A stretch of DNA of 64,000 bases from assembly GCF_020905345.1 (NCBI RefSeq), contig NZ_JAJJMO010000001.1, positions 4,836,001 through 4,900,000 on the forward strand, given 5' to 3'. The notes beneath the pieces were generated by a model. That model was not told where the DNA came from and ran no database searches. It was given only the letters and a program-made list of their open reading frames with translations. This stretch comes from Flavobacterium pisciphilum (GTDB lineage Bacteria; Bacteroidota; Bacteroidia; Flavobacteriales; Flavobacteriaceae). Position 1 is the first letter of the stretch, and each line of letters begins with the position of its first letter. Shown in pieces: positions 12,244-64,000 of the stretch. The position numbers were made by a program, and so were the translations under genes.

Positions 12244-12245
12244 CT

Positions 12246-13939: not shown

Positions 13940-13942
13940 TAT

Positions 13943-14068
13943 ATGAATACTGATAAAAACAAATCAAACGAACAAATTACAATTAAACTTTTAGACCAAA
14001 AAGATTGGAAAATTGTTAAAGAAATAAGTGTTGTTTCAACAAACCAATTTGGTGTTGAAAAGTATTAA
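13943..14068 (+). CDS. Small ORF after the CBASS effector
   Basis: 41 codons from an ATG three bases after the effector stop: MNTDKNKSNEQITIKLLDQK and on to a Val-Glu-Lys-Tyr end. It is AT-rich like the CBASS genes and in the same operon position. It may be a small accessory protein or the stub of a lost gene. I recognise no family. Confidence 0.35.
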   Translation: MNTDKNKSNEQITIKLLDQKDWKIVKEISVVSTNQFGVEKY

Positions 14069-14637
14069 ATCTCATTTTTTTACGGTAAACTGTGATTTTG
14101 AAAGAAGAGAGAGTTTAATCACTGAACTCTATAAAATAATATTCAAGTAAAATAATTGTTATAACATTCATATTATTAGTTAGAGCTATAGACAGCTTGG
14201 TCAATGGCTCTTTTAAAATCATCTGCATCGCTACCAATGAGTAGATAACCTGCAAAACCAATGTCTAAAAGAGGTTTACCGACTTTTTTATCATCAATAT
14301 CACTATGTGCAATCAGTTTTATTGTTGGATATTTTGTTCTTAATTCTTGAAGTTCAACCAAAACATTCTTGTTGTAAAAATCAAGGTCGATAATACAAAT
14401 TTTCGGGAGTTCATTTAATGAAGATAATTGTGATAGTCCATCTTCAATGCTTTCCGAACGAAATAAGACTTCAGTTCCTGAAGCAATGAGGTCTTTACAA
14501 ATGAAATCTAAAATTGGGCTTTTATCATTGATAAAGGCGAGTGTAATTTTTTGTTGTGCTGTACGTATCCGCCCGACGAAGTACATATTTGTGGTGATTT
14601 CTAGTGCTGCTATTTTTGCGTAAAATAAATAAACATT

Positions 14638-14928
14638 ATGAGACGTCATAAAACAGAGCAGCAAAAGCTATTGATCCTATATAGAGCAAGTGGTCTTTCA
14701 ATAGCAGCCTTTTGCAAGAAGCATGATCTTGTAAGAGCGACCTTCGACTATTGGTTAAAGAAGGATAAAGAAAAGTCAAGGGGTAGTTTTGTTGCCATCA
14801 AGCCTCCTGTCATCACCTCGCCAAGTGTGGCCTTACCTTCAATTGAGCTAAGCTTTCCCAATGGGGTTACCTTGAAGACAGCCATAACCAACCCTGATTT
14901 CATTTCCTCACTCATTCGATTAGTCTGA
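14638..14928 (+). CDS. tnpA: IS66 TnpA-like helix-turn-helix protein
   Basis: 96 aa, starting with an HTH of the IS3/IS66 OrfA type (RRHKTEQQKLLILYRASGLS, FCKKHDLVRATFDYWLKK). It is the first of the three IS66 proteins and is needed for transposition. The C-terminal half (PSIELSFPNGVTLKT) is the usual tail of this subfamily. It ends four bases before tnpB. Confidence 0.92.
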   Translation: MRRHKTEQQKLLILYRASGLSIAAFCKKHDLVRATFDYWLKKDKEKSRGSFVAIKPPVITSPSVALPSIELSFPNGVTLKTAITNPDFISSLIRLV

Positions 14929-14932
14929 TTAT

Positions 14933-15274
14933 ATGTTTAGCTTAGGATCCGAGCATCGATACTACCTGTATCGTGGTAGCTGTGATATGCGTCGTTCATT
15001 TAACGGACTTTGCGGTCTGATTAGTAGCGACCTCAACCTTAATCCGCTTAGCGGAGATGTATTTGTTTTCTTGAACAAAGCAGGCACCCATATCAAATTG
15101 CTTCATTGGGAGTCCGGAGGATTTGTGCTCTATTATAAAAGGCTGGAAAAGGGGAGTATATCGGTGCCTACAAATACACTTTCAGACCAGATATCGTACA
15201 GTGATTTGGTATTGATGATCGCAGGAGTAGAGGTGTTGAAAAGTCGTCAAAAAAAACGATATAAATTACACTGA
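14933..15274 (+). CDS. tnpB: IS66 TnpB-like accessory protein
   Basis: 113 aa with the IS66 Orf2 signature YLYRGSCDMRRSFNGLCGLI near residue 12 and VFVFLNKAGTHIKLLHWE after it. This protein is unrelated to the IS200/IS605 TnpB nuclease despite the shared name. It is full length and probably functional. Confidence 0.95.
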   Translation: MFSLGSEHRYYLYRGSCDMRRSFNGLCGLISSDLNLNPLSGDVFVFLNKAGTHIKLLHWESGGFVLYYKRLEKGSISVPTNTLSDQISYSDLVLMIAGVEVLKSRQKKRYKLH

Positions 15275-15324
15275 AAGTGTTGTTATTATTAGGTTGTATG
15301 CGATTGGTTGATTAACTTTACACC

Positions 15325-16887
15325 ATGCAAGCAACGTTCGAAAAACTATCAAAACAAGAGCTTTTGACCCTGGTCAAAGTTCAAAATGATAGAGTGCTTG
15401 AACTGGAAAATAAGAACGGACAAATTGCAAATAACAACCACACCCTTTCTCAGCAATACCATACCCTTTCAGATAAGTGTGATTACCTGCAGTACAAGGT
15501 AGCTTTGCTTACCCGTATGCTATTTGGTCAGCAAACTGAGCGTTTCGCCAAGGCCGAACAACCAGAACTTCCCTTTGCTCCAAGCGCTGAAGAACAAAAG
15601 CAGGTGCAAGAACAAATTGAAGAAAAGATAACCTACACCCGGAAGAAAGCAGCGGGTGGCCATAAAGGCCGTGCAGCTTTACCAGAGCACTTGCCAGTAG
15701 AAGAAATCGAGATCCATCCTGAACAAGACCTGACTGATAGCGTTGTTATCGGCAAGGACATTACAGATGAGCTCGAATTTGAGCCTGCACGCTTTTACAT
15801 CAAACGCTATATCCGCTACAAATACGCTACTAAAGACCGTAGCTCCGTAAGCATAGGTCCATTGCCGGAAAGAGTAATAGATAAAGGGATCCCCGGCCCG
15901 GGACTGCTGGCATCGATCCTAACAGACAAATACATGGATCACCTCCCCCTTTACCGCCAAAAACAAAGGTTTGCCAGGGAGGACATTAAAATAGCCTCCT
16001 CTACCTTAGAAGGCTGGACAAAGGAAGCCCTGCGACTACTGGAGCCACTCTATGATAAATTAGTAGCCGACACCAAAAGCCAAGGTTACCTCCAGGTGGA
16101 TGAAACCACCATTAAAGTTTTGGAAAGTGAAAAGAAAGGAGCCTGTCACAGAGGTTACTATTGGGTATATCATGCCCCATTGGATGGTACTGTGCTATTT
16201 GACTATAGCCCCACACGTGGGGCTGAAGCACCCTATCCCATATTAAAGGATTTTAAGGGGTATCTCCAAAGTGACGGCTATGCCGTTTATGAAAGCTTTG
16301 GCAAAGCAAAGGAGGTTACTCACCTGGCTTGTTGGGCACATGCAAGGAGGGAGTATGAACGCGCTTTGGATAATGATAAAACCAGAGCAGAAACAGCCTT
16401 GGTTATGATCCAAAAGTTATATGCTGTAGAACGACAATGCCGCACAGAAAACTTAAATAAGGCGCAGGTTAAAGAATTACGCCTTGCTACGAGCCTTCCT
16501 GTGCTTAATGAATTAGGCAAATGGATTGCTGAGGATATCAGGAACGTGCCGCCCAAGTCACAAATAGGCAAGGCGATGGCCTACTCTATTAGGCGTTGGA
16601 AGGAACTATGTGCCTATCTCTATGATGGAGACTTGGAAATAGATAACAACCGCGTGGAAAATGCCATAAGACCGGTGGCGCTCGGACGCAAAAACTACCT
16701 CTTTGCCGGAAGTCATGAGGCTGCTCAAAGAGCTGCTATGATCTATTCCTTCTTCGCCATCTGCAAGAAGCATGAGGTCAATCCTTTCAAGTGGCTAAAG
16801 TATACCTTGGAAAATATAAAGACAATAAAGTACAAGGACATCACTAATCTGTATCCGCAGAACTATAAGAAATTACAGAAACTATAA
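15325..16887 (+). CDS. tnpC: IS66 transposase (TnpC, DDE type)
   Basis: 520 aa. An N-terminal coiled coil with Asn/Gln-rich heptads (about 20-65) is followed by the leucine-zipper/zinc-binding part with LLTRMLFGQQTERF, and the DDE catalytic domain from about 230 (GYLQVDETTIKVLE, first Asp; GYLQSDGYAVYE, second Asp; DNNRVENAIRPVALGRKNYLFAGS, Glu motif). All catalytic motifs are present. The stop lies 26 bases inside the right end of the IS. Confidence 0.97.
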   Translation: MQATFEKLSKQELLTLVKVQNDRVLELENKNGQIANNNHTLSQQYHTLSDKCDYLQYKVALLTRMLFGQQTERFAKAEQPELPFAPSAEEQKQVQEQIEEKITYTRKKAAGGHKGRAALPEHLPVEEIEIHPEQDLTDSVVIGKDITDELEFEPARFYIKRYIRYKYATKDRSSVSIGPLPERVIDKGIPGPGLLASILTDKYMDHLPLYRQKQRFAREDIKIASSTLEGWTKEALRLLEPLYDKLVADTKSQGYLQVDETTIKVLESEKKGACHRGYYWVYHAPLDGTVLFDYSPTRGAEAPYPILKDFKGYLQSDGYAVYESFGKAKEVTHLACWAHARREYERALDNDKTRAETALVMIQKLYAVERQCRTENLNKAQVKELRLATSLPVLNELGKWIAEDIRNVPPKSQIGKAMAYSIRRWKELCAYLYDGDLEIDNNRVENAIRPVALGRKNYLFAGSHEAAQRAAMIYSFFAICKKHEVNPFKWLKYTLENIKTIKYKDITNLYPQNYKKLQKL

Positions 16888-16949
16888 AAACACGTACTTC
16901 GTCGGGCGCTTACTGCTGTACCAGTTTCCATATCATCATACTTTTTTAA

Positions 16950-17112
16950 AGTTGATGTAGCCCTGCACAAAAAGAAAGCGCAGGCAACTACACTTACCGC
17001 ACATTGAGGTACTGGTATACCCGACAACGAATAAGCGAGCGCCCACGCCTATGGCATGAGCGTTCTTCCTTATCGTCCCGTTGTCTAAAAATTACCAGTT
17101 TTCAATGTGGGA
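16950..17112. repeat. Two long imperfect palindromes
   Basis: The first hairpin pairs GTAG-CCTGC (about 16957-16967) with GCAGG-CTAC (about 16979-16991). The second is a stem of over 110 bases: ACATTGA (17001-17007) with TCAATGT (17102-17108), ACTGGT (17011-17016) with ACCAGT (17094-17099), GACAACG (17023-17029) with CGTTGTC (17079-17085), then ATAAG with CTTAT. Nothing codes here. It sits beside two excisionase-like genes and could be a recombination site or a structured RNA; the AAC/GTT ends of the cassette palindromes at 58-64 kb are not present. Confidence 0.65.
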
Positions 17113-17202
17113 CTTAAAGCAAAAACACTTTAAGTATTTCTATATTTTACATAGCAAAGATACTAAACTCTTGCTATTAGATGTATTAATGCAACAAAAA
17201 GC

Positions 17203-17508
17203 TTAGCCTGAATTTGTTTTGTGATTGATATAATTCTGCTCCAATATTGTCATCAAATCTGTTTCCTTATAAATAATTTTGCCACCGATCTGAATATACG
17301 GCAGGATATTATCATCACGGTATTGCTGTAAAGTCCGTTTGCTGATATGTAGCAATTTGCATACATCTTCGCCCGACAAATAAATTTCTCCGTTCATTAC
17401 AGGACGATAATTTTTTAATATGCTTTCAATACGGTTTCTCAACTGCATTATCATTTGCTGTTGTTCGATTACTTCTTCAGCTTCATTCGTCAATAAATTC
17501 ATTGTCAT
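17203..17508 (-). CDS. Helix-turn-helix (excisionase-like) protein 2
   Basis: About 101 aa from the ATG at 17508 (a start at 17502 is equally possible; the longer frame from 17550 would overlap the upstream gene widely). The MerR/excisionase-type winged helix is at GEDVCKLLHISKRTLQQYRDDNILPYIQIGGKIIYKETD. An N-terminal helix rich in Gln and Glu precedes it. Proteins of this pattern occur in pairs on Bacteroidota ICEs and include the CTnDOT excision proteins, so a role in excision or its control is likely but unproven. Confidence 0.75.
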   Translation of the reverse strand: MTMNLLTNEAEEVIEQQQMIMQLRNRIESILKNYRPVMNGEIYLSGEDVCKLLHISKRTLQQYRDDNILPYIQIGGKIIYKETDLMTILEQNYINHKTNSG

Positions 17509-17963: not shown

Positions 17964-19565
17964 ATGGCAGTATTACAAAAAGGCAATTCAAATTATCCGT
18001 TTTGGGGAGCATCAATAAGTCTAATCACTGGACTTGACCCGTTAGGCCTTCAAACAACCTCAGAAGCGACTTACGCCACTATGTTGCCTGGAATTTCCAA
18101 TTTGACTAATCGTCTCCGTTATTATGGGTTTTATTGTTGGCTTTTAGACTTCTATTTCAAGACCGAGAAGAAAGGCAACTCAAAAGAACAATATCGTTTT
18201 ATCCGCAGAGCTGAATTGATGATTGCCATAATTATGCAAAGCGAGCGTAAAGGAGTTCAACAGATAACAGGAAGTAACTTTGCTTCAAACCTAATAAATA
18301 CAGCTGAGGAAACTTATTTTGACTTAGCCGAAGGAGCAGACAAGGACAATACCGATAAAAATGTTTATTGGAAATATCCATCCGGTGCATTCGGACAATA
18401 TTATTACGGAGCAATGCAGGCACTTTCCTTAATTATTACAGCAATAAATGATGATGGAGATGCTATTTACAACATTAGTAAACCACACCCAAGACAAAAA
18501 GTTTCTGGGAAACAATTAGCCGAGGCTTTTGAAGGATCATTGTCACCACAAATAAAAGAGTTATTTTATATTAATATCAAAAAAGGAAAACTCTACCAAG
18601 ATGATATTTCAGAACTGATAAAGTATTTTGCGATTGATACGGTACAAACAGAAAATGCCGAATGGCAACTATATGTAGAAATGCTTTTGGACAAAGACGA
18701 TCCAAGTCAAGAAATGGAAGAACGTTTTACTTTTCACAGAAGGGAAACAATTTTGTCGCTCTTAAATACAGCTGTTAAAAATGAAAATAATTACGACTGG
18801 TATAGATTTCTATTGGAAAGTTACCGAAAGAAATTGGGAACAAATGGTTATCCTGAAACGGAAACTAATATTGGTTGGTACTGCTATCAATTAAATGAGT
18901 ATTGGCAGTACAGTTGCGGTACGATGTTTTGGGCTGTATTACAACATCTTTACGATTTCCAACAAGACCAATATCTACCATTGTTTGTAAAGAAATTTTC
19001 AAGCAGTATTACAAATGAAATATGCAAAGAGCTAAAGCAAGCTACAGAGCCAACAAGTTCACTTGCAGAAATTTTGGAGTTAATCCCTGACACAGAAGAT
19101 GAGGAAAACATCAAAAAGGAAATTGATGGAACAAACGACCCTGTTATAGTAGCAAAATATGGCTTTATTCTTTTGCTTCAAATATTCAAAAATAATAGAG
19201 AGCAACTTCATCCATTGAAAGAATTTATGAGCAGAAAAAAGATAGAAAGGGATGGGAATATGGTTGATGGTATCTTGACAGTTCACACAGCAGAAAACGA
19301 TACACTTCAAGATTTTGTTGAACAATTTATTTTACGCAAAATTATTTACAGGCACTCAATGGTTGCACTCAGAAAAATGGGCAACGGCTCACAGGCTACT
19401 CACAAATTTTTTATTGAGGAACAATACATCCGTTTCATAGATACATTTCCTCCAAGAAACACATCGCCAAGAATGAACGCCTTGCAAAACATAATGTTTG
19501 ATTTACAGGTAATCAACGACCAAAGGGTTTTATCGCCATTACATAAGAAACTTTTGATTGACTGA
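17964..19565 (+). CDS. Unrecognised 533-aa protein coupled to a PLD-like protein
   Basis: I do not recognise the family. The start GNSNYPFWGASISLITGLDPLGLQTTSE and NRLRYYGFYCWLLDFYF suggest a soluble, helical, aromatic-rich protein without signal peptide or membrane helices. No ATPase, nuclease or DNA-binding motif is visible. Its TGA stop overlaps the ATG of the PLD-like gene (19562-19568), so the two are surely made together. Location in the ICE cargo between CBASS and an abortive-infection-type gene suggests defence, which is an inference. Confidence 0.7.
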   Translation: MAVLQKGNSNYPFWGASISLITGLDPLGLQTTSEATYATMLPGISNLTNRLRYYGFYCWLLDFYFKTEKKGNSKEQYRFIRRAELMIAIIMQSERKGVQQITGSNFASNLINTAEETYFDLAEGADKDNTDKNVYWKYPSGAFGQYYYGAMQALSLIITAINDDGDAIYNISKPHPRQKVSGKQLAEAFEGSLSPQIKELFYINIKKGKLYQDDISELIKYFAIDTVQTENAEWQLYVEMLLDKDDPSQEMEERFTFHRRETILSLLNTAVKNENNYDWYRFLLESYRKKLGTNGYPETETNIGWYCYQLNEYWQYSCGTMFWAVLQHLYDFQQDQYLPLFVKKFSSSITNEICKELKQATEPTSSLAEILELIPDTEDEENIKKEIDGTNDPVIVAKYGFILLLQIFKNNREQLHPLKEFMSRKKIERDGNMVDGILTVHTAENDTLQDFVEQFILRKIIYRHSMVALRKMGNGSQATHKFFIEEQYIRFIDTFPPRNTSPRMNALQNIMFDLQVINDQRVLSPLHKKLLID

Positions 19566-22216
19566 TGATACTAGAAAGAGAAAACATACTAACATTGATA
19601 GGAAGCAGAAGATATCATTCTGCAATTCTTACTACCTTCAGCTTTGACTTTTATTTTTTTGAAATGAAAGCAATGAAATGGTTGCGTTCTTGTGGCGTGA
19701 GAAACATCAACGTTTTTATTGATGGACATTATTATTCAGAGTTAATGCAACAAGCGACAGGAGAAGAAATGCAACTTTCTGCCGGTTATTCACTTTATCC
19801 TGTTTTTCAAAAGTCAGTATTCCATCCAAAAATTTGGATGTTGTTTGGTGAAAAAGAAGGATTGCTTATTGTTGGTTCTGGAAACCTTACAAATTCTGGA
19901 AATGGCAACAATGATGAGATTTGGGGAGCATTTCATTTTGATATTCGTTCAACCGAAAATTCATCAGTCTTTTCGTCAGCTTGGGATTATCTATCAACTC
20001 TTTCATCGTCAGTTAAAGGACAGATGAATGAAAAAACTACAAAATGGATACTTGAACATTCTAAATGGCTGAATGAATTGCCAAAGACAAAACCATTTCA
20101 ATTTTTCGAAACGTCGCAAAAAGAGAAGGTTGCTTTCCTGTTTAATACTGAAACAACTTCTATTTGGAACGAACTTTTAAAACATCTTAGCAATGAGAAA
20201 GTAGTAGAAATAACTACCATTTCTCCATATTATGACAAAAATGGGAAAGTATTGCAAGAACTTAATTCTCTTTTTCCTTCAGCCATAGTAAAAGTCATAT
20301 TGGATGAAAGTGGTTTAATCCCTTCTGCAATGCAAGTGAACAAAGCGTTTACATTTTACGATTGGTGTGATGCAGGCGTAAGCAAAATCCAATATGCAAA
20401 ATCTGGAAACTCAAAATCAAAACTTCACGGGAAGATTATTCATTTCAAGACAAAAAATGGAAAAGAATTTTGCTTGTTCGGTAGTGCCAATATTACACCT
20501 GCAGGATTGGGATTATTGGGCAAAAATTCAAATGCAGAAGTTTCACTTCTTATTCAGTCAGAAAAAGGTGGATTATTAAATCAATTAGGCATAAAACTGA
20601 AAACAAGCAATAGTAAAAGCCTTGATGAATTTACAGCGACTACAAATCAGTCAATTTATGAAACTATAATCAAGAACAATCAATTTAAAGTACAGTTGCT
20701 TTGTGCAGAGTTGATTTATGATGAATTTATACTTCATTCCACTGGAACTTATACCGATGAATTCAAGGTTGTTTTCTTCGATAAACAAAACCGATTTTTG
20801 TATTCCAAAACTTTCTCAAATTATGCGAAAGAGCTAAAAATAACAGTCAATTTAGAATTAGGCAGTTTCCTATATGTGCAATTGACAAATGTTAATGATG
20901 GGATTATCTCAAATAAACTATTAATTTCCGATTATTTCCTTTTGGCGAAAACGCATCCTAACCCAAAAACAGAGGAAATTGAGAAAATTTATAGCGAAAT
21001 TCAAAATGGCGAACTAAGTAAAGTTCTTGACTTGTTGCATTACGCCATCTTTGACGAAACAGAAAATGAGACAGGAGCCAGCTTTTTAGATAGTAGGAGA
21101 AGCACGTTTACAAAGCTGAATGATGACAAAGAACCTGAAAAACTTTACGATCTCTCTTCCTATAAAGCAATAGAAAATTCTGGATTTGAAAAAAACCTTC
21201 TACTCTCTTCTCTTTCCCTACGTGTTTTAGATGTTTTGAAGTTCATCAATTTAAATGGAATTTCAACAAATAAACAAGCTGATATAAGTATTGATGAGCA
21301 AGAAGACGATTTAGGCAACATAAATGGAAATGAGGAAGGAGAAGTGGCAACGGTTCGTAACCTCTCTTTTGTCATTCTTAAATCTGAAAAAAGAAAGTTG
21401 ATGAACTACTTTGATAACCTTTACAATTACCAACAAGAAATTCTCTATGGGAATAGTCGACCAAAAACATATAGGCCTACACTTACAGATTTGACTAAAT
21501 ATTTAATCGCTCTTGAGTTGATAAGTGAATACGGAGGGAAATCTGCAAAGTATGACGAACAAGACACGCACCATTTTTTCAGTTATTTACCATTTGTAGA
21601 CGATTATGACAATAACAATGTAAAGGGTTGTTGTTTAAACTTAATTGGCGACTTTTTGATGCTGGCAAGAAGCGGATTTAAAGCGTATGAATTTGACTAT
21701 ACAAAAAAGAAAATCGAGGAACTAAAAAAAGAGGCACTCATAAATACAATTGTTTGCTTAATTAACAATCGATGGAAAGATGATGAATTACATTACTTTT
21801 TTACTATGGCTTTAAATGCACTTCATTATTTAGGTTGTAGGAATGTAGATGATTTCAATAGCAATTTTGTAGAATTAAAATCCAAAATTAATATTAGAAT
21901 TTCCGAGCTGAAAAACAGAACAAAAGGATTTGAAAAAAACTTAGAGATATTTTACGAAAGACTATGTCCTTCGTTTATAAAAGTGATTGAACAGATTGAA
22001 GATAAGAACTTTGATACATCAGCAGTTAACGGGCAAATTATTTACAAATCGCCTTGGGGTTATAGCTACGTTCAGTACGTAAATAAAACAAACGATTTTA
22101 CTTTAATCAGACCTGGCTTTATGTGGGACTATGATAAAGAAGATTACATAAAACACAGTCCAGACGAAATTTATTTACCTCTAAAACTCTCATCTTTTAT
22201 ATGCACCGATTTGTAA
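19565..22216 (+). CDS. Phospholipase-D-like nuclease-type protein, 883 aa
   Basis: Two PLD half-sites are visible: HPKIWMLFGEKEGLLIVGSGNLTNSG (about 88-113) and KLHGKIIHFKTKNGKEFCLFGSANITPAG (about 282-310), each with the HxK and GSxN elements used by PLD nucleases and phospholipases. Residues from about 400 to 883 form a long region that I cannot assign, with an acidic linker (SIDEQEDDLGNINGNEEG) near 575. There is no helicase domain, unlike DISARM- or restriction-linked PLD proteins. It probably cuts nucleic acid or lipid as the effector of a two-gene system with the upstream gene. Confidence 0.75.
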   Translation: MILERENILTLIGSRRYHSAILTTFSFDFYFFEMKAMKWLRSCGVRNINVFIDGHYYSELMQQATGEEMQLSAGYSLYPVFQKSVFHPKIWMLFGEKEGLLIVGSGNLTNSGNGNNDEIWGAFHFDIRSTENSSVFSSAWDYLSTLSSSVKGQMNEKTTKWILEHSKWLNELPKTKPFQFFETSQKEKVAFLFNTETTSIWNELLKHLSNEKVVEITTISPYYDKNGKVLQELNSLFPSAIVKVILDESGLIPSAMQVNKAFTFYDWCDAGVSKIQYAKSGNSKSKLHGKIIHFKTKNGKEFCLFGSANITPAGLGLLGKNSNAEVSLLIQSEKGGLLNQLGIKLKTSNSKSLDEFTATTNQSIYETIIKNNQFKVQLLCAELIYDEFILHSTGTYTDEFKVVFFDKQNRFLYSKTFSNYAKELKITVNLELGSFLYVQLTNVNDGIISNKLLISDYFLLAKTHPNPKTEEIEKIYSEIQNGELSKVLDLLHYAIFDETENETGASFLDSRRSTFTKLNDDKEPEKLYDLSSYKAIENSGFEKNLLLSSLSLRVLDVLKFINLNGISTNKQADISIDEQEDDLGNINGNEEGEVATVRNLSFVILKSEKRKLMNYFDNLYNYQQEILYGNSRPKTYRPTLTDLTKYLIALELISEYGGKSAKYDEQDTHHFFSYLPFVDDYDNNNVKGCCLNLIGDFLMLARSGFKAYEFDYTKKKIEELKKEALINTIVCLINNRWKDDELHYFFTMALNALHYLGCRNVDDFNSNFVELKSKINIRISELKNRTKGFEKNLEIFYERLCPSFIKVIEQIEDKNFDTSAVNGQIIYKSPWGYSYVQYVNKTNDFTLIRPGFMWDYDKEDYIKHSPDEIYLPLKLSSFICTDL

Positions 22217-22222
22217 GTTAAA

Positions 22223-22252
22223 AAATCGGATAACTTTTGGGTTATCCGATTT
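22223..22252. terminator. Bidirectional terminator between convergent genes
   Basis: A perfect 12-bp stem, AAATCGGATAAC (22223-22234) with GTTATCCGATTT (22241-22252), has A/T runs on both sides and lies between the PLD-like gene (plus) and the TIGR02391-like gene (minus). It can end transcripts from both directions. Confidence 0.88.
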
Positions 22253-22255
22253 GCG

Positions 22256-23056
22256 CTATTTAAGTCCTGTTTTGTAAGTGTTATCAAGTTTGTTATGAAT
22301 AATTGTAGCTACAACCAATACTTCAGTCATTTCTGAAAGTTGAGTGTCTTCTAATATTTTCGGGTTATGCGCTTTTGGATTTCGGTACATAGAAAAAAAT
22401 CCTTTACAGAAGTTGCCGAAACCCTTATGCTCACTTTCTTCGCTTGGATTATTCAGCATATTAAAAGCAAGCATAGGTCTTTTGTCTTTTCCTAAAGCAA
22501 AACAATCATCAACCAGATCTACTCCATCTGAAGTATAGCCACTTTTCTGCCTAAGTCTTTCCGCAACACTTTTTGTGATTTCTAGTATAGAGTGAAAATA
22601 ATTTTCTTTCAGCCATTCGGCTTCGCAGTATGGTAAAATTTCTGAATGAACTCCGATACCGTGTACTTTTTCTTTGATTTTAAGTGACCTGCTTTTAGCT
22701 TCTGAAATGGTTTTAGCCTTTTCAACTAGTCGGGGTTGTCCGGTTTTATCAATTTCTATCCCTTCGTAAACTAATTTTTCATTGATAGTTGTTCTGTCTC
22801 TTTCAAATTCGTCTTCGGAATTATATCTTTTAGGATTTAATAACCTAACTACAAATGCCAATACATTATTTCCACAATTGTCTTGTATTTGCTTTTCTTT
22901 TAATGCATAAAAAAGTCTGTCGGTTTTGTTTGTACCAATTTGCGATTGAGAAATATTAGCACCAGCTAAATGTTCTGTGATTTTTGTATGCGTTAATAGA
23001 TTTGATATAATGTCAGATATATTTCGCAAGGTTATGTCATCAAAGGATTTTGTCAT
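22256..23056 (-). CDS. TIGR02391-family (Ymh-type, abortive-infection-like) protein
   Basis: 266 aa. The C-terminal domain with YFHSILEITKSVAERLRQKSG, DGVDLVDDCFALGKDKRPML and FCKGFFSMYRNPKAHNP matches the TIGR02391 / Hypoth_Ymh family, often found in defence islands and linked to abortive infection; the mechanism is unknown. The His-containing RNPKAH motif resembles the RX4-6H pattern of HEPN ribonucleases, which may be meaningful. It faces the PLD-like gene across a shared terminator. Confidence 0.72.
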   Translation of the reverse strand: MTKSFDDITLRNISDIISNLLTHTKITEHLAGANISQSQIGTNKTDRLFYALKEKQIQDNCGNNVLAFVVRLLNPKRYNSEDEFERDRTTINEKLVYEGIEIDKTGQPRLVEKAKTISEAKSRSLKIKEKVHGIGVHSEILPYCEAEWLKENYFHSILEITKSVAERLRQKSGYTSDGVDLVDDCFALGKDKRPMLAFNMLNNPSEESEHKGFGNFCKGFFSMYRNPKAHNPKILEDTQLSEMTEVLVVATIIHNKLDNTYKTGLK

Positions 23057-56991: not shown

Positions 56992-57932
56992 CGCTCAAAA
57001 AGCAGGGATTATGAACATATTCAGTTTTACGGCTCATTTCGGTTCGGAGGAAGATTGTCGTTTGCATTTCAAGGAGCAGCGTGATAAGGAAGGGGTTGTC
57101 TGCAAGCGATGCGGGGGCACTTCCCATTATTGGTTACAGGGTAAATGGAGTTATGAATGCAAAGGTTGCCGTTTCCGCACCTCGTTGCGCAGCGGTACGA
57201 TCATGGAGAGCTCCAAGCTGCCGTTTCTGGTGTGGTACAAAACGATGTTCCTGATGAGTTGCACAAAAAAGGGATTCTCCACCAACGAACTCCAGAAGCA
57301 ATTAGGATTGAAGCGTTACGAACCGGTATGGGCGATGGTACACAAACTCCGCAGGGCGATGGGCAACCGGGATGCAAGGTATACACTGGAAGGGATGATA
57401 GAACTGGATGAGGGTTACTTTTCGGTGGCCAGTAAGGAAATCGAGCGAGGCAAGGGTACACGTGGCCGGGGAGCCGAGGGAAAGCAGAACGTTGCGGTGA
57501 TGGCCGAAAGCACCCCGTTGGAAGATATCGAAACGGGCAAAAAGGAGAAGCATGTGCGTTATTTCAAGGCCAGGGTACTGGATAGCCATCAAAGTGAAGG
57601 AATCAACGGCGTGGTCAGGGACTGCATGGAGGATGATGCCATCGTATTTTCGGACAAAAGCACTTCTTACGTTGACATCTCCGATCTGGTGGAATTGCAC
57701 GTCACCGAGAAATCAGACGCCAAAACCACCAAGGAAACACTCAAATGGGTGCATATCGCAATCAGTAATGCAAAACGGACATTGCTGGGCAACTACCATA
57801 AAATCAAAAGGAAATACTTACAGTTGTATCTCAACGAGTTTATTTACAAATTAAACAGACGGTATTTTGGAGACAAACTCTTTGACAGACTAGTAATTGC
57901 GAATATAACAGGTGCATAAACGGATAATCAGA
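56950..57932 (+). mobile_element. IS1595-family insertion sequence
   Basis: 983 bp. Ends are imperfect inverted repeats, TCTGATTCTCCG... at 56950-56972 and TCTGATTATCCG... on the reverse strand at 57932-57910, both ending CACCT. It carries one transposase whose stop codon lies inside the right repeat. I see no target duplication: the 8 bases on the two sides differ. It therefore joins two unrelated regions (a metal repressor on the left, a broken exonuclease on the right) and a deletion or recombination probably followed insertion. Confidence 0.85.
57011..57919 (+). CDS. IS1595-family transposase (ISXO2-like DDE)
   Basis: 302 aa. The N-terminal zinc ribbon (CKRCGGTSHYWLQGKWSYECKGCRFRTSLRSGT) is followed by the ISXO2-like DDE/N transposase domain with IELDEGYFSV (first Asp), DKSTSYVDI (second acidic site) and WVHIAISNAKRTLLGNYHKI with YLNEFIYKLNRRYF. 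It is full length. The base composition is more GC-rich than its neighbours. Confidence 0.95.
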   Translation: MNIFSFTAHFGSEEDCRLHFKEQRDKEGVVCKRCGGTSHYWLQGKWSYECKGCRFRTSLRSGTIMESSKLPFLVWYKTMFLMSCTKKGFSTNELQKQLGLKRYEPVWAMVHKLRRAMGNRDARYTLEGMIELDEGYFSVASKEIERGKGTRGRGAEGKQNVAVMAESTPLEDIETGKKEKHVRYFKARVLDSHQSEGINGVVRDCMEDDAIVFSDKSTSYVDISDLVELHVTEKSDAKTTKETLKWVHIAISNAKRTLLGNYHKIKRKYLQLYLNEFIYKLNRRYFGDKLFDRLVIANITGA

Positions 57933-58534
57933 AAAATCTATATGAACATTATAATTTAAAACCATATGTCATAAGTTATATTGACACAATGTTATTTGCA
58001 GATAAACTTGGGATGCCTAAAAAAATAAAAGATTTAGCAGAGAGTTTGGACTTAGAAGTAACAAATCATCACGACCCAGAATTCGATGCAAAACTTTGTG
58101 CTTTAATATTTGGCGAATTGACTGACAAGTATCCAAGTTATCAAGAACTAATAAGAAAAATTGATGACCAGCCTAAAACAAATAATAATTATTTCAATCA
58201 ACCAAGTGAAGATGTTTTAGAAGAAAATGAAGAGCATTTATCAAATTATCAAATAACTCAAAACGAACTTGAAAACATTGATTTAATAGGAAAAGGAATA
58301 GTTATTACGGGCAACTTTTCAATAGAAAGAGAAGAAATAAAAACTTTTCTAATGAAAATTGGTGGACAAATAAAATCAGGAATAACAGGTAAAGTAGATT
58401 TTGTTTTTGCAGGTGAAGATTGTGGTTGGTCAAAAATCCAAAAAATAAACGACTTAAACCAATCAAAAAAAGCAAACATTAGAATTTTAAACGAAGCTGA
58501 CTTAAATTATCTTATCAAAAAATACGGCATATAA
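57933..58534 (+). pseudogene. 3' part of a DEDDh exonuclease with BRCT domain, cut by IS1595
   Basis: The frame is open from the IS end and reads KNLYEHYNLKPYVISYIDTM before the first ATG at 57989. This and NHHDPEFDAKLCALIF (the last catalytic His and Asp motif) are the end of a DnaQ-like 3'-5' exonuclease, followed by a linker and a BRCT domain (IDLIGKGIVITGNFSIEREEIK, GKVDFVFAGEDCG). The first two exonuclease motifs are missing. Its stop codon lies inside the first cassette palindrome, so it was the gene of an upstream cassette. Confidence 0.8.
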
Positions 58535-58725
58535 CATCGCATTGGCAAAATGGCGGGTTAAGTGCCAAACTCAACTTTTGTGCATTTTATTCCGCCGAAT
58601 GTGTTCCACATTCAGCTTTTTTTAATAATTTAGCTTCTGTGGAAACACATCGGCTACGTCACTGCTAAATTGAACTTTTTGTCCAATTTATCCGCCACTT
58701 CGCCAATGCGTTTCCCGTTAGTGGC
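58526..58725 (+). repeat. attC-like cassette site 1 (200 bp)
   Basis: The site starts GGCATATAAC and ends GTTAGTGGC. CGCATTGGC near the left end pairs with GCCAATGCG near the right, TGGCGGgTTAA with TTATCCGCCA, and an inner CCGAATGTGTTCCACA with TGTGGAAACACATCGG. It closes the broken exonuclease-BRCT cassette and opens the OXA cassette, whose first bases GTTAGTGGC match the arm of site 2. Confidence 0.85.
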
Positions 58726-58754
58726 AACAAAAACAAACGATAATTAGACAATAA

Positions 58755-59579
58755 ATGAAAAATATTTTATTTGTAGTTTTTATTTCAATGATATTTTTAT
58801 TTGTTTGCTGTAACACAACAACGAATAAAAACATAATTGAAACAGAAATTTCTGATTTTGACAAAATTTTAGATAGTTTTCAAGTAAATGGTTCAATTCT
58901 AATTTATGATAACGACAAGAATACTTTTTACTCAAATGACTTTGATTGGGCTAAAAACGGAAAATTACCTGCATCAACATTCAAAATTCCAAATTCTATA
59001 ATTGCTGTTGAATTAGGCATTATTGAAAATGATACAACTATTTTAAAATGGAATGGCGAGCAGAGAAAAATGGATATTTGGGAAAAAGATTTATCATTTA
59101 AAGATGCTTTTAGAATTTCCTGTGTTCCTTGCTATCAGGAAATTGCAAGGAAAATCGGAACAATTAAAATGAAAGAATATTTAGAAAAATTTGAGTATAA
59201 AAATATGATTTTTGACAGTTTAACGATTGACAATTTTTGGCTTGAAGGAAATTCAAAAATATCTCAAAAACAACAAATCGACTTTTTAAGGAAATTCTAT
59301 TTTTCAAAATTTCCAATTTCTGATAGGACAATAAAGATTGTCAAAAATATTATGGAAATTGAGCGAACTGAAAATTACATTTTAAGCGGTAAGACTGGAT
59401 TAAGTTCGATAGAAGAAAAATATAATGGTTGGTTTGTTGGTTATGTTGAAACAAAATCTAATGTTTATTTTTTTGCAACAAATGTAATTCCGACAGACGG
59501 ATTGAATGTTGATGATTTTATTTCATCGAGAATTAATGTAACAAAAAATGCGTTAAAGCAAATGAATATAATGAAATGA
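58755..59579 (+). CDS. blaOXA-347: Class D beta-lactamase OXA-347
   Basis: 274 aa, recognised as OXA-347. It hydrolyses penicillins through a serine acyl-enzyme. The lipoprotein-type leader is MKNILFVVFISMIFLFVCC. Class D motifs are STFK (Ser about 76, in PASTFKIPNS), SCV (about 124) and KTG in LSGKTGLS (about 212). Only 29 bases lie between the cassette site and the ATG, too few for a promoter of its own, so expression depends on upstream transcription. Confidence 0.93.
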   Translation: MKNILFVVFISMIFLFVCCNTTTNKNIIETEISDFDKILDSFQVNGSILIYDNDKNTFYSNDFDWAKNGKLPASTFKIPNSIIAVELGIIENDTTILKWNGEQRKMDIWEKDLSFKDAFRISCVPCYQEIARKIGTIKMKEYLEKFEYKNMIFDSLTIDNFWLEGNSKISQKQQIDFLRKFYFSKFPISDRTIKIVKNIMEIERTENYILSGKTGLSSIEEKYNGWFVGYVETKSNVYFFATNVIPTDGLNVDDFISSRINVTKNALKQMNIMK

Positions 59580-59584
59580 TAAAT

Positions 59585-59724
59585 GCCACTAACATATGGT
59601 AGCCGATAATTGCCGGCTTTCGTGCCAACTTGATACTTTGGTGCTTTTAACGAACCGAAGTGCTAAATTGATACGAAAGTGCTGTAAATCCGGCAACTAC
59701 GGCTACCATTTTTCGTTATGCGGC
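59585..59724 (+). repeat. attC-like cassette site 2 (140 bp)
   Basis: Starts GCCACTAAC, the exact complement of GTTAGTGGC that opens the OXA cassette at 58717. Stems: ATGGTAGCCG with CGGCTACCAT and TTGCCGG with CCGGCAA. It ends GTTATGCGGC, which opens the erm(F) cassette. It begins six bases after the OXA stop codon. Confidence 0.9.
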
Positions 59725-59781
59725 AGCTTAAAAGACGACACCAAACCAGAAAAATCATCTTGACAACCACCCGACTTTGAA

Positions 59782-60582
59782 CTACGAAGGATGAAATTTT
59801 TCAGGGACAACTTCCAGCATTTCCAAAAAACAGTTTACCCATTGACTTGGAGACAAACAAACAATTTGAGCATTAAGGTTTAAACCGAATTTTTCCGAAA
59901 TTGACCTGACCTGACTTTTCCTGAAAATCGACTTTAAAGCTGTTTTTACAGATAAATCAGGTTTCTCTAACAGACAGGAAATAAATGCTAAGTATTTGGC
60001 TTTAAACTTAAAATCAAAAAATAACTGTTTTCTTTTAATGTTTAACAGGGCTGATTTGACAGTTGGCGGTGGAAAGAAACTTTCAGGACCTACCTCATAG
60101 ACAAGTTTCAAATCAAAAAAAGTATGATAGAAAACGGTATATGGATTGTAAAGCTTCCTCGAAAATAACTTTTGTGTAGGTTCTAACTGAAGGACAATGG
60201 AACCTCCCAGAAAATTTCCAAGACTCTCAAACATCAGGATTTTGAAAATATCGGAAGTAATGCCATAAGGAATATTTGACACCACTTTGAAAGGAAATTT
60301 CGGAACTGCAAAATTCCTAAAATCACAACCGACAACTTGAACATTTCGGGCATCAGAAAATAATTTTCGTAAATGTTCAACCAAAGCTGTGTCGTTTTCA
60401 ATAGCAACAACATTGTTGGCGATTTTTAATAAATGAACAGTAAGAAACCCCTTGCCTGCCCCAATATCTAAAACCGTATCCTGATTACTTATATTTGCTT
60501 GTCTTATTGCATCTTTTATTAGCACTTTATCAATAGTAAAGTGCTGACCCGTAAAACGAACGGGCAATTTCTTTTTTGTCAT
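59782..60582 (-). CDS. erm(F): 23S rRNA adenine-N6 methyltransferase ErmF
   Basis: 266 aa, recognised as ErmF. It dimethylates A2058 of 23S rRNA and so blocks macrolides, lincosamides and streptogramin B. SAM-binding motifs are visible: VLDIGAGKGFLTVHL (motif I, about 38-52), VAIENDTAL and VVSNIPYGITSDIF (the N-I-P-Y catalytic motif, about 101-114). It is inverted relative to the cassette order and has its own promoter and a leader with an upstream short frame. Confidence 0.97.
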   Translation of the reverse strand: MTKKKLPVRFTGQHFTIDKVLIKDAIRQANISNQDTVLDIGAGKGFLTVHLLKIANNVVAIENDTALVEHLRKLFSDARNVQVVGCDFRNFAVPKFPFKVVSNIPYGITSDIFKILMFESLGNFLGGSIVLQLEPTQKLFSRKLYNPYTVFYHTFFDLKLVYEVGPESFFPPPTVKSALLNIKRKQLFFDFKFKAKYLAFISCLLEKPDLSVKTALKSIFRKSQVRSISEKFGLNLNAQIVCLSPSQWVNCFLEMLEVVPEKFHPS

Positions 60583-60826
60583 TAGTAACTTCTTACAGGT
60601 GAATACTTGAATTCAAATCGTGGAGAAGTGAATAGACAGTATTACCCGACAGAGCAACTATGACAACGTAACGCCTTTACAAAAAAGTCGGTACACGAAA
60701 CCCATAGACTAATTGTCTTGACCTAAAAGAGATTGGAATTTTCAGGACTGCCTATCACTTAGATAGAAGTCCAAGGTCTGCTGAAATACATAATTCAAAA
60801 ATTGAAATTGCTTGACTGCAAATTTA
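60583..60826 (-). promoter_or_regulatory. erm(F) promoter and leader with attenuator-like folds
   Basis: TAAATTTG (minus strand, 60826-60819) fits the -7 box. The roughly 230-base leader holds an upstream frame (60791-60759), a hairpin overlapping its end (60772-60745), and two mutually exclusive stems: AGAC/GTCT (60718-60706) and a terminator-like AGTC-GGT/ACC-GACT with a T6 tail (60710-60681). This is the layout of ribosome-controlled attenuation. Confidence 0.6.
60759..60791 (-). CDS. Leader peptide MYFSRPWTSI upstream of erm(F)
   Basis: A ten-codon frame, ATG at 60791 to TAA at 60759, about 20 bases after the predicted transcription start. Its first seven residues are MYFSRPW; the leader of ere(D) at 63437 reads MYFSKPW. 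Twenty-one of 23 bases around it agree between the two leaders. A macrolide-dependent arrest peptide is the most likely role, but no arrest has been shown. Confidence 0.65.
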   Translation of the reverse strand: MYFSRPWTSI

Positions 60827-60875
60827 GTAACTTTGCTTGACAAATTAACGAGAAAGAAGAGAAAATGAAAACCGA

Positions 60876-61014
60876 CCGCATAACATCACCTATACGCAAG
60901 CAGGGGTTTCGTGCTTCGTAGGACAGTTAAGTGGTAAATTTAAAGTTCAGTTCTTCGTAGGAAGTTCAGTGGTTAAAATCCCTGCCTGCGTATAGCTGAG
61001 AACCGTTGTACGAC
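60876..61014 (+). repeat. attC-like cassette site 3 (139 bp)
   Basis: Starts CCGCATAAC, exact complement of GTTATGCGG that opens the erm(F) cassette at 59715. The main stem pairs TATACGCAAGCAGGG with CCCTGCCTGCGTATA. It ends GTTGTACGAC, opening the aadS cassette. The gene before it is inverted, so the site lies on the promoter side of erm(F). Confidence 0.9.
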
Positions 61015-61037
61015 ATAGTAAAACCGAACCAAACAAA

Positions 61038-61901
61038 ATGAAAGTCAGAGAAGAAAAGTTAAGAACAATTATAGAATGGTCGGAGAAAAACGAAGATGTA
61101 AGAGTTCTTCTTCTGACAAGTTCACTTGTAAATCCTTTAGCACTTGTTGACGAATTTAGTGATTTAGACATTGAATTTGTTTTTGAGGATAATACAAATT
61201 ACATTTCAGACAAAAGCTGGACGCTTAAATTCGGAAATCCAATTGCTATGATTGAAGAAGACGAAAGTTGTTTTAACCATAAACACGCAATGAAAATGCT
61301 ACTTTATGAAGACGGTGTGAAAGTAGATTTTAAACTTTACAGCAAATCAAAATTTATAAAGGAAACGCAAGAGAAAGAATTACCAGAAGATTGGGATATT
61401 GGTTATAAAATTTTAATTGATAAAGATGGTATTACAAAGCAAATGCTGAAACCAACTTATCAAATTTCCATTATCAAAAAACCGTCTGAAAAAGAGTTTC
61501 AAAATCTAATAAACGATTTTTGGTGGGACACAACTTACGTGGCAAAGTGTCTTGTGAGAGATGAAATATTCTATGCGAAATTTATGTCGGAAACCGTTAT
61601 TCGCACAGAATATTTAATTCCTTTAATTGAATGGCACATTGCAAGTGAACACAATTGGAACATAACGACCAATAAATATGGACGGCTTTTCAAAAAGTAT
61701 CTTAACCAGGAAATGTGGGCTAAAACAGAACAAACATTTTCAGGGAGCGATATAAAGGAAAATTGGACTGCTCTATTTTCAATGACTGATTTAGTTTCAG
61801 AAATAGGAACTGAATTGTCAAAAAAATTAGAGTACAAATACCCGGATAAATTAGAAAATGACATACGAAAATATTTAGCTGGACTAAAACCCAAAACATA
61901 A
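61038..61901 (+). CDS. aadS: Aminoglycoside 6-adenylyltransferase AadS
   Basis: 287 aa, recognised as AadS, which adenylates streptomycin. The nucleotidyltransferase motif is LLTSSLVNPLALVDEFSDLDIEFVF (DxD about 43-45) with a later GVKVDFKLY Asp (about 98). The C-terminal helical domain is intact. The ATG is 23 bases from the end of the preceding cassette site, with no promoter in between. Confidence 0.95.
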   Translation: MKVREEKLRTIIEWSEKNEDVRVLLLTSSLVNPLALVDEFSDLDIEFVFEDNTNYISDKSWTLKFGNPIAMIEEDESCFNHKHAMKMLLYEDGVKVDFKLYSKSKFIKETQEKELPEDWDIGYKILIDKDGITKQMLKPTYQISIIKKPSEKEFQNLINDFWWDTTYVAKCLVRDEIFYAKFMSETVIRTEYLIPLIEWHIASEHNWNITTNKYGRLFKKYLNQEMWAKTEQTFSGSDIKENWTALFSMTDLVSEIGTELSKKLEYKYPDKLENDIRKYLAGLKPKT

Positions 61902-61905
61902 CTAC

Positions 61906-62043
61906 GTCGTACAACATCGTATTGGCAATAGGCGGGCTGAACGGCTTCGTATCAACGGAAGTGCAAAATTCAACTTCTGTTCTTCGATTAAAGTTCAGTG
62001 CTAAAAATCCCGCCCATCGCCAATACGCGGCACGTTATGTGAA
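61906..62043 (+). repeat. attC-like cassette site 4 (138 bp)
   Basis: Starts GTCGTACAAC, exact complement of GTTGTACGAC at the start of the aadS cassette (61005). CGTATTGGC pairs with GCCAATACG and GGCGGG with CCCGCC. It ends GTTATGTGAA, opening the ere(D) cassette. It begins four bases after the aadS stop. Confidence 0.9.
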
Positions 62044-62101
62044 AGAATAAAACGGCACCTCCAAAAAGAAAGTGCCGTTTCGAAATTAAATTTATAAATT
62101 C

Positions 62102-63328
62102 TCAATCCACTACTTCTGAAACAGTTGATTTTTCTATTAGAAAAATTCCGTCAAAAGCTTCTTCTATTTCAGTTTTTAGGCACATCGAATCAAATCGAAT
62201 CTTATTACAATTTTTTAATTCCGTACTTCTGTTCATTAGTAAACAGCATTCTTTTCCTCCAAATTCTTGCATAATAAATTCAACAGAATCCGACTCTGGA
62301 AAATCAAGTGGAAATTTATCAACCCTAAAGCCAAATTGATAATCATTATCAGGATACAATGCCGCAGTTTCTCCACGTAGATTAGTTATTGCAAATGCTT
62401 TATATTTTTCTCCAAAAGTCATCGAAAGTCTTTGCCCCATTGGATAACAACTAATAAATCCATCAAAATCTACCGGAGTTTTTTGAATGTGAGCATTGTG
62501 GGCAACCAAAATAATCTTTTTACCAAGTGAATTTTTCAAAAACCAATCAATGCTTTCTGCCATATACTGGTCTTTTGCTCCCATATCTCCTTCAATTCCC
62601 CTTTCAGTAATGAAACTTTCCATAGCATCAGCATTATAATTCATATAAATCAAGCCTTTAACTTGATGAACTATCGATTGAAATTCTAAACTTTCTAATT
62701 TTGGTTGAAGAGTAATCAAACGAATGTAAACTTTTAATAGCAATGCTTTTAATTCATTATGTTCAGCTTCATCAAAAAGCGATAAATTTAACGCAAGCTG
62801 AGAAGTCGAATAGAAATCAAATTTCTCAGCAAGATTTAAAATCTTCTGTAAGACATCAGAAGAAACGATTGAAAGTCTTTGCAAATAATCAGATACAATA
62901 CGAAAGTTTGGAAAATAAGAACCTCCATTTTTAGGAATATCCACACCTAAAAAGGTAATTTGATTATTATTGTCTTGATTATACCGACGAAGCCATAGCA
63001 AAGTATCTTTAAACTCATTTGGATAATAAAAGTGTGACAGTAACTTATCCAAATCGTCGAATGGAATTTGTGATTTTATCCACTTATCAACTTCTAATCC
63101 TTCAGAAAAACCAAACTCAAATGCCAAGGTGTCAAAATCACATTCAGTTACTAAAAACTCAATAACTTGATGCCTGAATGTAAAAAACTCTTTTATGAAA
63201 TGTGCGTTTTCGCCTAAACCAACAATTGTAGAAGAATCAAAATATTCTCGAAATCGAAAAAGACTTTGTTTTATGGATGTATTATTTTCCGAATTAAACG
63301 GAAAAGTTAAGGGTTTTATATTTTTCAT
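62102..63328 (-). CDS. ere(D): Erythromycin esterase EreD
   Basis: 408 aa, recognised as the Ere(D) type. It opens the macrolide ring by hydrolysis of the lactone. Motifs: GLGENAHFIKEFFTFRHQVIEFLV (His of the active site, about 38-61), FEFGFSEGLEVDKWI (Glu) and VAHNAHIQKTP (His-Asn-His, about 276). It is inverted in its cassette and has its own promoter and leader. Confidence 0.95.
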   Translation of the reverse strand: MKNIKPLTFPFNSENNTSIKQSLFRFREYFDSSTIVGLGENAHFIKEFFTFRHQVIEFLVTECDFDTLAFEFGFSEGLEVDKWIKSQIPFDDLDKLLSHFYYPNEFKDTLLWLRRYNQDNNNQITFLGVDIPKNGGSYFPNFRIVSDYLQRLSIVSSDVLQKILNLAEKFDFYSTSQLALNLSLFDEAEHNELKALLLKVYIRLITLQPKLESLEFQSIVHQVKGLIYMNYNADAMESFITERGIEGDMGAKDQYMAESIDWFLKNSLGKKIILVAHNAHIQKTPVDFDGFISCYPMGQRLSMTFGEKYKAFAITNLRGETAALYPDNDYQFGFRVDKFPLDFPESDSVEFIMQEFGGKECCLLMNRSTELKNCNKIRFDSMCLKTEIEEAFDGIFLIEKSTVSEVVD

Positions 63329-63466
63329 TATTACCTTATTTTAAATTAAAAATTAACGTACCAAATAGCAACCGTCTCAAAAAGACGATTTAATAATTTA
63401 CTTTAATTTTTAATTACCAAGGCTTGCTGAAATACATAAAATGTGAATTATTTGAATACAAAGATA
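63329..63466 (-). promoter_or_regulatory. ere(D) promoter and leader
   Basis: TATCTTTG (minus strand, 63466-63459) fits the -7 box. The leader of about 120 bases holds the MYFSKPW frame and a hairpin (CGTCT/AGACG, 63387-63373) between it and the ere(D) start. No clear T-run follows the hairpin, so control could be at translation. Confidence 0.6.
63414..63437 (-). CDS. Leader peptide MYFSKPW upstream of ere(D)
   Basis: Seven codons, ATG at 63437 to TAA at 63414, about 15 bases after the predicted transcription start. The reading frame, codons and position match the erm(F) leader except AAG (Lys) for AGA (Arg) at codon 5. After the leader codons the two leaders do not resemble each other, so the short frame is what is conserved. 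Confidence 0.65.
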   Translation of the reverse strand: MYFSKPW

Positions 63467-63477
63467 CTAAAAATTCC

Positions 63478-63677
63478 TTCACATAACATCGCATTGGCAA
63501 AATGGCAGGTTAAGTGCTAAATTGAAAGTTTCTGCATTTTATTCCGCCGAATGTGTTCCACATTCGCTTTTTATTTGTAAGTTAGCTCTGTGGAAACACA
63601 TCGGCTACGTTCTCGCTAAATTGAACTTTTTGTCCAATTTATCCGCCACTTCGCCAATGCGTTTCCCGTTATGTGCC
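63478..63677 (+). repeat. attC-like cassette site 5 (200 bp)
   Basis: Starts TTCACATAAC, exact complement of GTTATGTGAA at the start of the ere(D) cassette (62034). It is a close relative of site 1 over its full length, with the same outer and inner stems. It ends GTTATGTGCC, opening the tet(X) cassette. Confidence 0.9.
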
Positions 63678-63685
63678 ATTTTTGA

Positions 63686-64000
<315 letters not shown>

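Follow-up and report, generated by a model that had tools for sequence, protein, structure and literature searches.

Resistance gene cassettes of Flavobacterium pisciphilum as probable members of a second, integron-like system of gene capture in Bacteroidota

The resistance genes OXA, erm(F), aadS, ere(D) and tet(X) all start within the final 6 kb of a 64,000-nucleotide stretch of Flavobacterium pisciphilum DNA (the window; positions 4836001-4900000 of contig NZ_JAJJMO010000001.1, part of a 5.46-Mb, two-contig genome), and are probably part of a second system of gene capture that resembles integrons. Among bacterial gene-capture platforms integrons are the best known, and a special insertion is the defining mark of their recombinase. 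It is highly probable that the array in the window consists of recombinase-less cassettes from a second lineage of integrons that spans the Bacteroidota and whose tyrosine recombinase, not an IntI, likely acts at the GTT of folded attC-like sites. Every cassette of the window is terminated by a long palindrome whose outer 5' arm is complementary to the beginning of that cassette, the trace to be expected of a circle closed at GTT. On chromosomes, sites of this family are strung together in long arrays of a single orientation, and one recombinase family heads many arrays, often with an attI-like start of the first cassette.

The five palindromes that a preliminary description had placed at 58526-58726 through 63478-63677 of the window were confirmed at these positions (Table 1). 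In all six cassettes in or beside the window, 9-10 bases of the opening GTT box matched the reverse complement of the arm closing that cassette without a mismatch. Four of these are complete inside the window, and the exact terminal complements first reported for them were reproduced (10 bases for OXA, 9 for ermF, 10 for aadS and 10 for ereD). The tet(X) and exonuclease/BRCT cassettes are closed just outside the window and have complements of 10 bases each, that of the latter being GTTATATGCC/GGCATATAAC. Eight 9-base GTT.../...AAC pairs lying 300-2500 bases apart were present in the region, compared with a mean of 1.98 (maximum 6) in 200 shuffles; five fell exactly at palindrome ends and three elsewhere, chance alone yielding some. 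The stem finder produced 0.5 matches per shuffled 14-kb strand and one match in the remaining 57 kb of the window (both strands). A first, ungapped version missed two of the window sites and marked both strands, and the counts given here come from its replacement. An Rfam scan of the window at the gathering level returned no match.

To characterize the site family, 13 diverse short sites from this genome and related plasmids were aligned along a 20-pair outer stem. Compensatory changes were found in 17 of the 20 pairs, and the covariation score was 0.571, compared with 0.152 for shuffled alignments (none of 500 reached the observed value) and 0.057-0.125 for slid versions. One stem column was unpaired on the top strand in all 13 sites, mostly as A versus C, which corresponds to T.G on the bottom strand. 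Boxes and wobbles were counted in a filtered set, also used below for the pairs of mixed chromosomal loci and plasmids, that includes five of the six array sites and omits the ermF/aadS site with its unusual spacers. The 87 sites with distinct stems in this set had 158 wobbles on the bottom strand versus 56 on the top strand, and 82 of them had a wobble at stem position 12 or 13. The bottom strand was the more stable fold in 60 of the 87 (Wilcoxon p = 4e-6), and 22 bulges were counted with a finder that penalizes bulges. Most sites were covarying hairpins of 120-190 nt. The boxes consist of GTT and about seven further bases, the AAC/GTT being fixed by the design of the stem finder; position 8 was G in 119 of the 174 boxes. 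GTTRRRY fitted 9 of the 174, which is about chance level, in agreement with the earlier remark that the classical RYYYAAC/GTTRRRY rule is not obeyed. Classical attC sites are known for extrahelical bases, in place of which the present sites mostly have wobble pairs (A.C on the top strand, T.G on the bottom strand), and the arms of 9-10 bases likewise differ from RYYYAAC/GTTRRRY.

The same kinds of site were present on plasmids of Riemerella, Empedobacter, Myroides, Bacteroides, Sphingobacterium and one Salmonella, and gene content and order differed among those related plasmids that were read. In resistance cassettes, the interior and left arm of the site travel with the upstream gene, and the right arm is a property of the next cassette. 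Ten copies of the tet(X) site had one left arm and seven right arms, five copies of the OXA site had one and three, and six copies of the aadS site had two and six, with an IS91-type unit beside the aadS site where the left arm deviates. Among 15 site groups with at least three copies, left arms were fewer than right arms in seven and more numerous in none. The preliminary description had considered that the same genes might lack the site elsewhere, or that the palindromes might always stand in one fixed order; the same genes do carry the site elsewhere, and the right arms of the tet(X) site speak against a fixed order. Insertion sequences (ISs) are plentiful around the arrays and IS91-type units abut some sites, as would suit palindromes that are static repeats or IS targets, with genes moving only by IS1595, IS4351 or IS91/ISCR. 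This explanation is scarcely credible: it does not account for the exact self-complementary ends, the exchangeable right arms, the attI-like starts or the published single-cassette insertion of aph(3')-IVb, the last two of which are described below.

A covariance model (R1) was built from the 13 sites, and the covariance search suggested in the preliminary description detected sites of the family in 150 genomes of a 296-genome sample of the window's phylum (85 of 139 genera; E <= 0.01) and in 87 of 120 genomes of one family (E <= 0.001). In the genome of the window, R1 matched at 12 places (E <= 1), 11 of them below 1e-5. A second small site cluster was seen there at 2678007-2681633 (L088), with five R1 matches, one of them weak, and no recombinase of the family described below; a single further match lies at 601059-601197. 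One long array, in a 40-kb stretch of genome G395, had 45 same-strand sites in about 35 kb at a median spacing of 710 bases. Of its 44 adjacent pairs, one was out of register, and 39 of the 43 testable ones were complementary at 6-7 of 7 free positions, compared with 9% of random pairs from the same array. The longest open reading frames (ORFs) shared one direction in 40 of 44 cases. The complement rule (6-7 of 7) was kept in 41 of 65 pairs of mixed chromosomal loci, 15 of 28 plasmid pairs and 10 of 23 pairs of genome G368. The stem finder gave 126 matches in 1145 kb of array and recombinase loci versus one in 399 kb of XerC/D loci.

The partial TIGR02249 matches at array heads represent one family, with a SAM-like domain and Phage_integrase, whose members are called XerD or 'site-specific tyrosine recombinase/integron integrase' by those sources that give a name. 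The one protein scanned scored 210.6 bits against a TIGR02249 cut-off of 265. The residues R, K, H, R, H and Y, which have established roles in tyrosine recombinases, were invariant across 16 aligned members. The insertion specific to IntI, which comprises two stretches with about 40 residues in all, was present in seven of seven canonical IntI and absent from all 11 aligned new recombinases. In the tree, the array-linked recombinases were split from XerC/D by a fully supported branch and also branched apart from IntI; the best Foldseek match of the predicted structure was IntI4 (2a3v). Long forms, 35 of the 57 tree members, are extended at the N terminus by one to three additional domains, each of some 70 residues, as judged by eye. 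The profile of this domain matched the HARP domain of SMARCAL1 (4o66) at 3e-5, and HARP was matched at E <= 1 in five of 22 N-terminal domains (best 1.8e-4), as was DUF5710, likewise in five of 22. The gathering cut-off of Pfam HARP (PF07443) was not reached (18.1 versus 25 bits in one of seven proteins), and HARP was missing from the 25 families listed for 40 full-length members. On these profile comparisons the domain appears HARP-like only. The recombinases in L089 and L104 (G034 and G131), of 582 and 566 residues, have by eye three HARP-like repeats before the catalytic part.

The preliminary description had proposed looking for a tyrosine recombinase gene beside arrays of the sites, and this family was found at array heads. 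R1 sites occurred at 19 of 20 loci of members with the N-terminal domain, on the strand of the gene in all 19; the lone siteless locus, L117, stops at a contig edge. They occurred at 12 of 20 loci of members without this domain, on the opposite strand in 10 of the 12. In one family, members with the N-terminal domain were divergent from the array in the cases examined. The 20 loci with the domain, from 18 genomes and some of them near-identical, were the top of the profile-search ranking minus those fetched earlier; the 20 others were drawn from listed members lacking it, and 20 control loci were listed Xer-level matches of the same search. The locus sets overlap in some contigs (L109 = L170) and hence are not independent. 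Sites were also found at 39 of 80 loci fetched by title, e.g. in Flavobacterium limicola, F. psychrophilum, Algoriphagus ornithinivorans and Winogradskyella epiphytica. In the phylum sample, 82 of 93 recombinase-positive genomes (E <= 1e-65) had sites, versus 68 of 203 negative ones (p = 2e-19), and inside one family the numbers were 66 of 67 versus 21 of 53.

Two known recombinases have to be weighed against this family. Xer modules carrying resistance genes occur in Acinetobacter, and the array gene is labelled XerD in many records; the palindromes might then be acted on by host XerC/XerD, as in plasmid dif-like modules. No R1 site was found at the 20 XerC/D control loci, although 11 of those genomes have sites elsewhere, so the sites are unlinked to host xerC/xerD genes, in which they differ from XerC/XerD-dif modules. 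This result, the long covarying hairpins and the fully supported branch between the array-linked recombinases and XerC/D make an action of XerC/XerD highly improbable. Alternatively, these could be ordinary integron cassettes with unusual attC sites that are mobilized in trans by a canonical IntI. Canonical IntI was found above the cut-off in 84 of the 296 genomes, so the phylum holds both recombinase types, and IntI1 is known to accept diverse attC sites (PMC8618304). The sites were not positively associated with canonical IntI (34 of 84 IntI genomes versus 116 of 212 others), R1 gave no match at 20 canonical-IntI loci (73 kb, short flanks), and the boxes lie outside the GTTRRRY rule. Mobilization by IntI is thus very unlikely.

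An attI-like site was found next to the recombinase gene. Among 35 loci examined, a GTT box opening the first cassette lay within 150 nt of the recombinase stop codon in 19 of the 27 loci with a downstream site, when the box was compared with the closing arm of the first site and at most one mismatch was allowed; arms taken from other loci matched in 6.1%. In the 21 loci where box and arm differed at two positions or fewer, the bases ahead of GTT read TATAAAC(A/G)A, with A at -8 in 20 and, in 19 loci each, T at -7 and A at -6. Two recombinase genes on Chryseobacterium plasmids were followed by TATAAACAA immediately before GTT.

Published work bears on the cassette boundaries. In the available part of PMC13148043, R. 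anatipestifer ATCC 11845 was naturally transformed by aph(3')-IVb without flanking homology, and 27 bp ahead of the coding sequence and 140 bp behind it were always co-transferred; the authors noted an attC-like fold. The donor was RCAD1101, RCAD0416 was named as a carrier of the gene, the 140-bp segment was identical across isolates, and a scan of the recipient region for mobile elements, integrons included, found none. In a plasmid of RCAD0416 (L016; not the donor), the aph(3')-IVb unit at 16531-17486 is a predicted GTT-to-GTT cassette, and the published insertion boundaries agree with the prediction to within the GTT. The published segment thus has the kind of site found here and was inserted site-specifically, without homology, upon natural transformation; the part of that paper available mentions neither a recombinase nor an attI, nor a self-complement rule or a system spanning the phylum.

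In pHH1107, tet(X3) opens at the cassette box GTTATGTGCC, behind the truncated recombinase gene tpnF. Over 226 residues, tpnF was 68.6% identical to an array recombinase, compared with 34-37% for Xer or IntI. The xerD-tet(X) units of Acinetobacter and Empedobacter, whose xerD is treated as an Xer recombinase or mobility suspect in the literature consulted, PMC7473080 included, are alike in that a cassette box stands behind a truncated recombinase gene in pHH1107, and unlike in that this gene is nearer an array recombinase than Xer and in that no closing arm of the tet(X) type was found in pHH1107.

Several other observations concern elements near the sites and the recombinase genes. Units of an IS91-type transposase and a tyrosine recombinase were seen in L015 (Myroides odoratimimus p63039) at 7582-9437, 10906-12884, 14250-16228 and 20309-22287 and in L250 at 13969-15911, and at four L015 sites the left arm TTAGTTCAAC replaces the usual arm, as if IS91-type units target the AAC/GTT junction. 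The tyrosine recombinase of these units was rejected as the mobilizer: three that were tested scored 228-234 bits, compared with 362 for tpnF and 498 for a Chryseobacterium plasmid recombinase. Because of these scores and a best match to a separate lineage, the units look like ISs targeting the sites. Some sites had both ends shaped like left arms (AACAT...ATGTT) and a fuller palindrome (L011 8442-8645; L014 3247-3450; L012 and L017 2801-2984), as expected from an inverted or aberrant recombination product. Retron-type reverse transcriptase and type II and III restriction-modification genes were found beside the recombinase in L080 (G057; 9712-15884) and L250 (16681-23475), together with a UvrD-type helicase resembling those of Gabija or DRT systems. 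On the Chryseobacterium sp. SNU WT5 plasmid (L249), the recombinase gene is followed by an IS110 transposase and a group II intron (18299-19300 and 20765-22081); IS110 elements and group II introns also sit in classical integrons. Among the 80 relatives kept from viral contigs, the best segment was at most 48% identical; none of them matched over residues 1-81, and sites were not searched there. The VIA comparison spanned mainly residues 96-358, with the N-terminal domain outside it.

In the genome of the window, the cassette recombinase was not found, the best match to the recombinase profile being at Xer level (E = 1e-52). The window array is a recombinase-less cassette run flanked by IS1595 copies. 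To the right of the window lies a second IS1595 copy, 100% identical across the gene; the name ISBbi1 used in Table 1 is borrowed from the annotation of a related plasmid. The exonuclease cassette, for an exonuclease-like protein whose end resembles BRCT, starts after tet(X) and ends before OXA, each part being interrupted by an identical IS1595 copy; its halves, compared singly, matched distinct parts of PRK06195, both below the cut-off. Given this split between both array ends, the block probably existed earlier in closed form, either circular or as a tandem repeat, and was inserted via recombination between IS1595 copies. Right of the second IS1595, a dihydropteroate-synthase-like gene of resistance type, recognized by eye, and a partial third IS1595 were seen (L008 8645-9962).

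Table 1. Features of the cassette array, in window positions
Feature	Position	Strand	Basis or remark
IS1595-family (ISBbi1-like) transposase	57011..57919	+	NCBIfam NF033547; left edge of array
Exonuclease cassette, 3' part (BRCT end)	57989..58534	+	interrupted by IS1595; 5' part beyond window after tet(X)
attC-like site exo/OXA, long type, 187 nt AAC to GTT	58526..58726	+	terminal complement and stem finder
OXA cassette	58718..59715	+	class D beta-lactamase ORF 58755-59579
attC-like site OXA/ermF	59584..59724	+	terminal complement and stem finder
erm(F) cassette	59716..61005	+	ORF 59782-60582 on - strand
attC-like site ermF/aadS	60875..61014	+	terminal complement and stem finder
aadS cassette	61006..62034	+	ORF 61038-61901
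attC-like site aadS/ereD	61906..62043	+	terminal complement and stem finder
ere(D) cassette	62035..63668	+	ORF 62102-63328 on - strand
attC-like site ereD/tetX, long type	63478..63677	+	terminal complement and stem finder
tet(X) cassette, opening part	63669..64000	+	closing site 64866-65004, just past window

The system resembles integrons in that a tyrosine recombinase gene heads a one-way array, the first site is attI-like, cassettes consist of about one ORF and a hairpin site with AAC/GTT ends, and the circle rule holds. It differs in its recombinase, which lies outside the IntI clade and is without the IntI-specific insertion, and in the HARP-like N-terminal domain of many members. Judged by the sequence criteria for integrons, the G395 and window arrays are tandem one-way arrays with a 3' site for each cassette, an attI-like site next to the recombinase starts the first cassette, and cassette starts complement their own closing arms; the recombinase, by contrast, is not of the IntI clade with its additional domain around patch III, and the boxes fit RYYYAAC/GTTRRRY no more often than about chance. 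Since three of these criteria describe the system and two do not, it is called a distinct integron lineage, which would work like an integron if the catalysis that we infer for its recombinase is correct. The earlier proposal of a Bacteroidota cassette-recombination system with an unknown or distant recombinase is supported, and a strong candidate for that enzyme can be named from its sequence.

Several results weigh against this interpretation. The activity of the recombinase on the sites is deduced from sequence, and the enzyme lacks the domain that is said to be necessary for integron recombination (PMC9668308). The grouping of the new recombinases into one clade was supported at 81/94 only. 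No R1 site was seen at eight of the 20 loci whose recombinase is without the N-terminal domain or at about six of 30 named loci with at least 3 kb of room (computed with approximate gene ends), and the attI match was missing in eight of 27 loci. There was no R1 match in 11 of the 93 recombinase-positive genomes, and sites were present in 68 of the 203 negative genomes, which could be due to clusters without a recombinase, to genes that were overlooked or to noise of the model. Fewer than 6 of 7 positions were complementary in 24 of 65 mixed-locus pairs, 13 of 28 plasmid pairs and 13 of 23 G368 pairs, for which missed intervening sites and IS insertions are likely causes. Left and right arms were equal in number in eight of the 15 site groups; we take these to be mostly chromosomal groups in which different cassettes have near-identical sites. 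The one stem-finder match in XerC/D loci also counts here, as do the failure to identify a recombinase gene in R. anatipestifer, where the insertion was observed, and the failure to find a tet(X)-type closing arm and site behind tet(X3) in pHH1107.

In a distinct integron lineage of this kind, the tyrosine recombinase would capture and excise cassettes at the GTT of the folded attC-like sites. It may act on the folded bottom strand, because the conserved T.G wobbles pair only there, and the HARP-like domain, where present, may help hold the folded hairpin in place of the missing IntI insertion. The attI-like site would be the entry point of new cassettes, and older ones would be released in circular form. 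The window block would have lost its recombinase and then arrived by recombination between the identical IS1595 copies. A more far-reaching version is a second integron superfamily, in which the recombinase, not an IntI, would grip the wobble-marked, folded single-stranded cassette ends with an annealing domain of HARP type in place of the IntI insertion, Bacteroidota chromosomal superintegrons would be the source of tet(X), erm(F), ere(D), aadS and OXA as escaped cassettes, and the xerD of xerD-tet(X3) would be the stump of the parent recombinase. We regard this version as an even call; it is made less likely by the absence of HARP from the listed families and by the missing closing arm of tet(X) type at tet(X3) of pHH1107.

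No description of the system was found in the open-licence PMC literature, which leaves preprints outside, and prior art may exist elsewhere; the nearest was PMC13148043. If the interpretation is true, a lineage without the IntI insertion, with its recombinase in 93 and its sites in 150 of 296 genomes, means that a second form of cassette capture arose or persisted, and that its enzyme is often annotated as XerD. A single mechanism would then underlie the shuffled resistance islands of Riemerella, Empedobacter, Myroides and their relatives, and it would account for the homology-free insertion in Riemerella and explain both the xerD-tet(X) pairing and the spread of genes such as tet(X) and erm(F). 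The site model and the recombinase profile make the chromosomal cassette arrays of Bacteroidota searchable.

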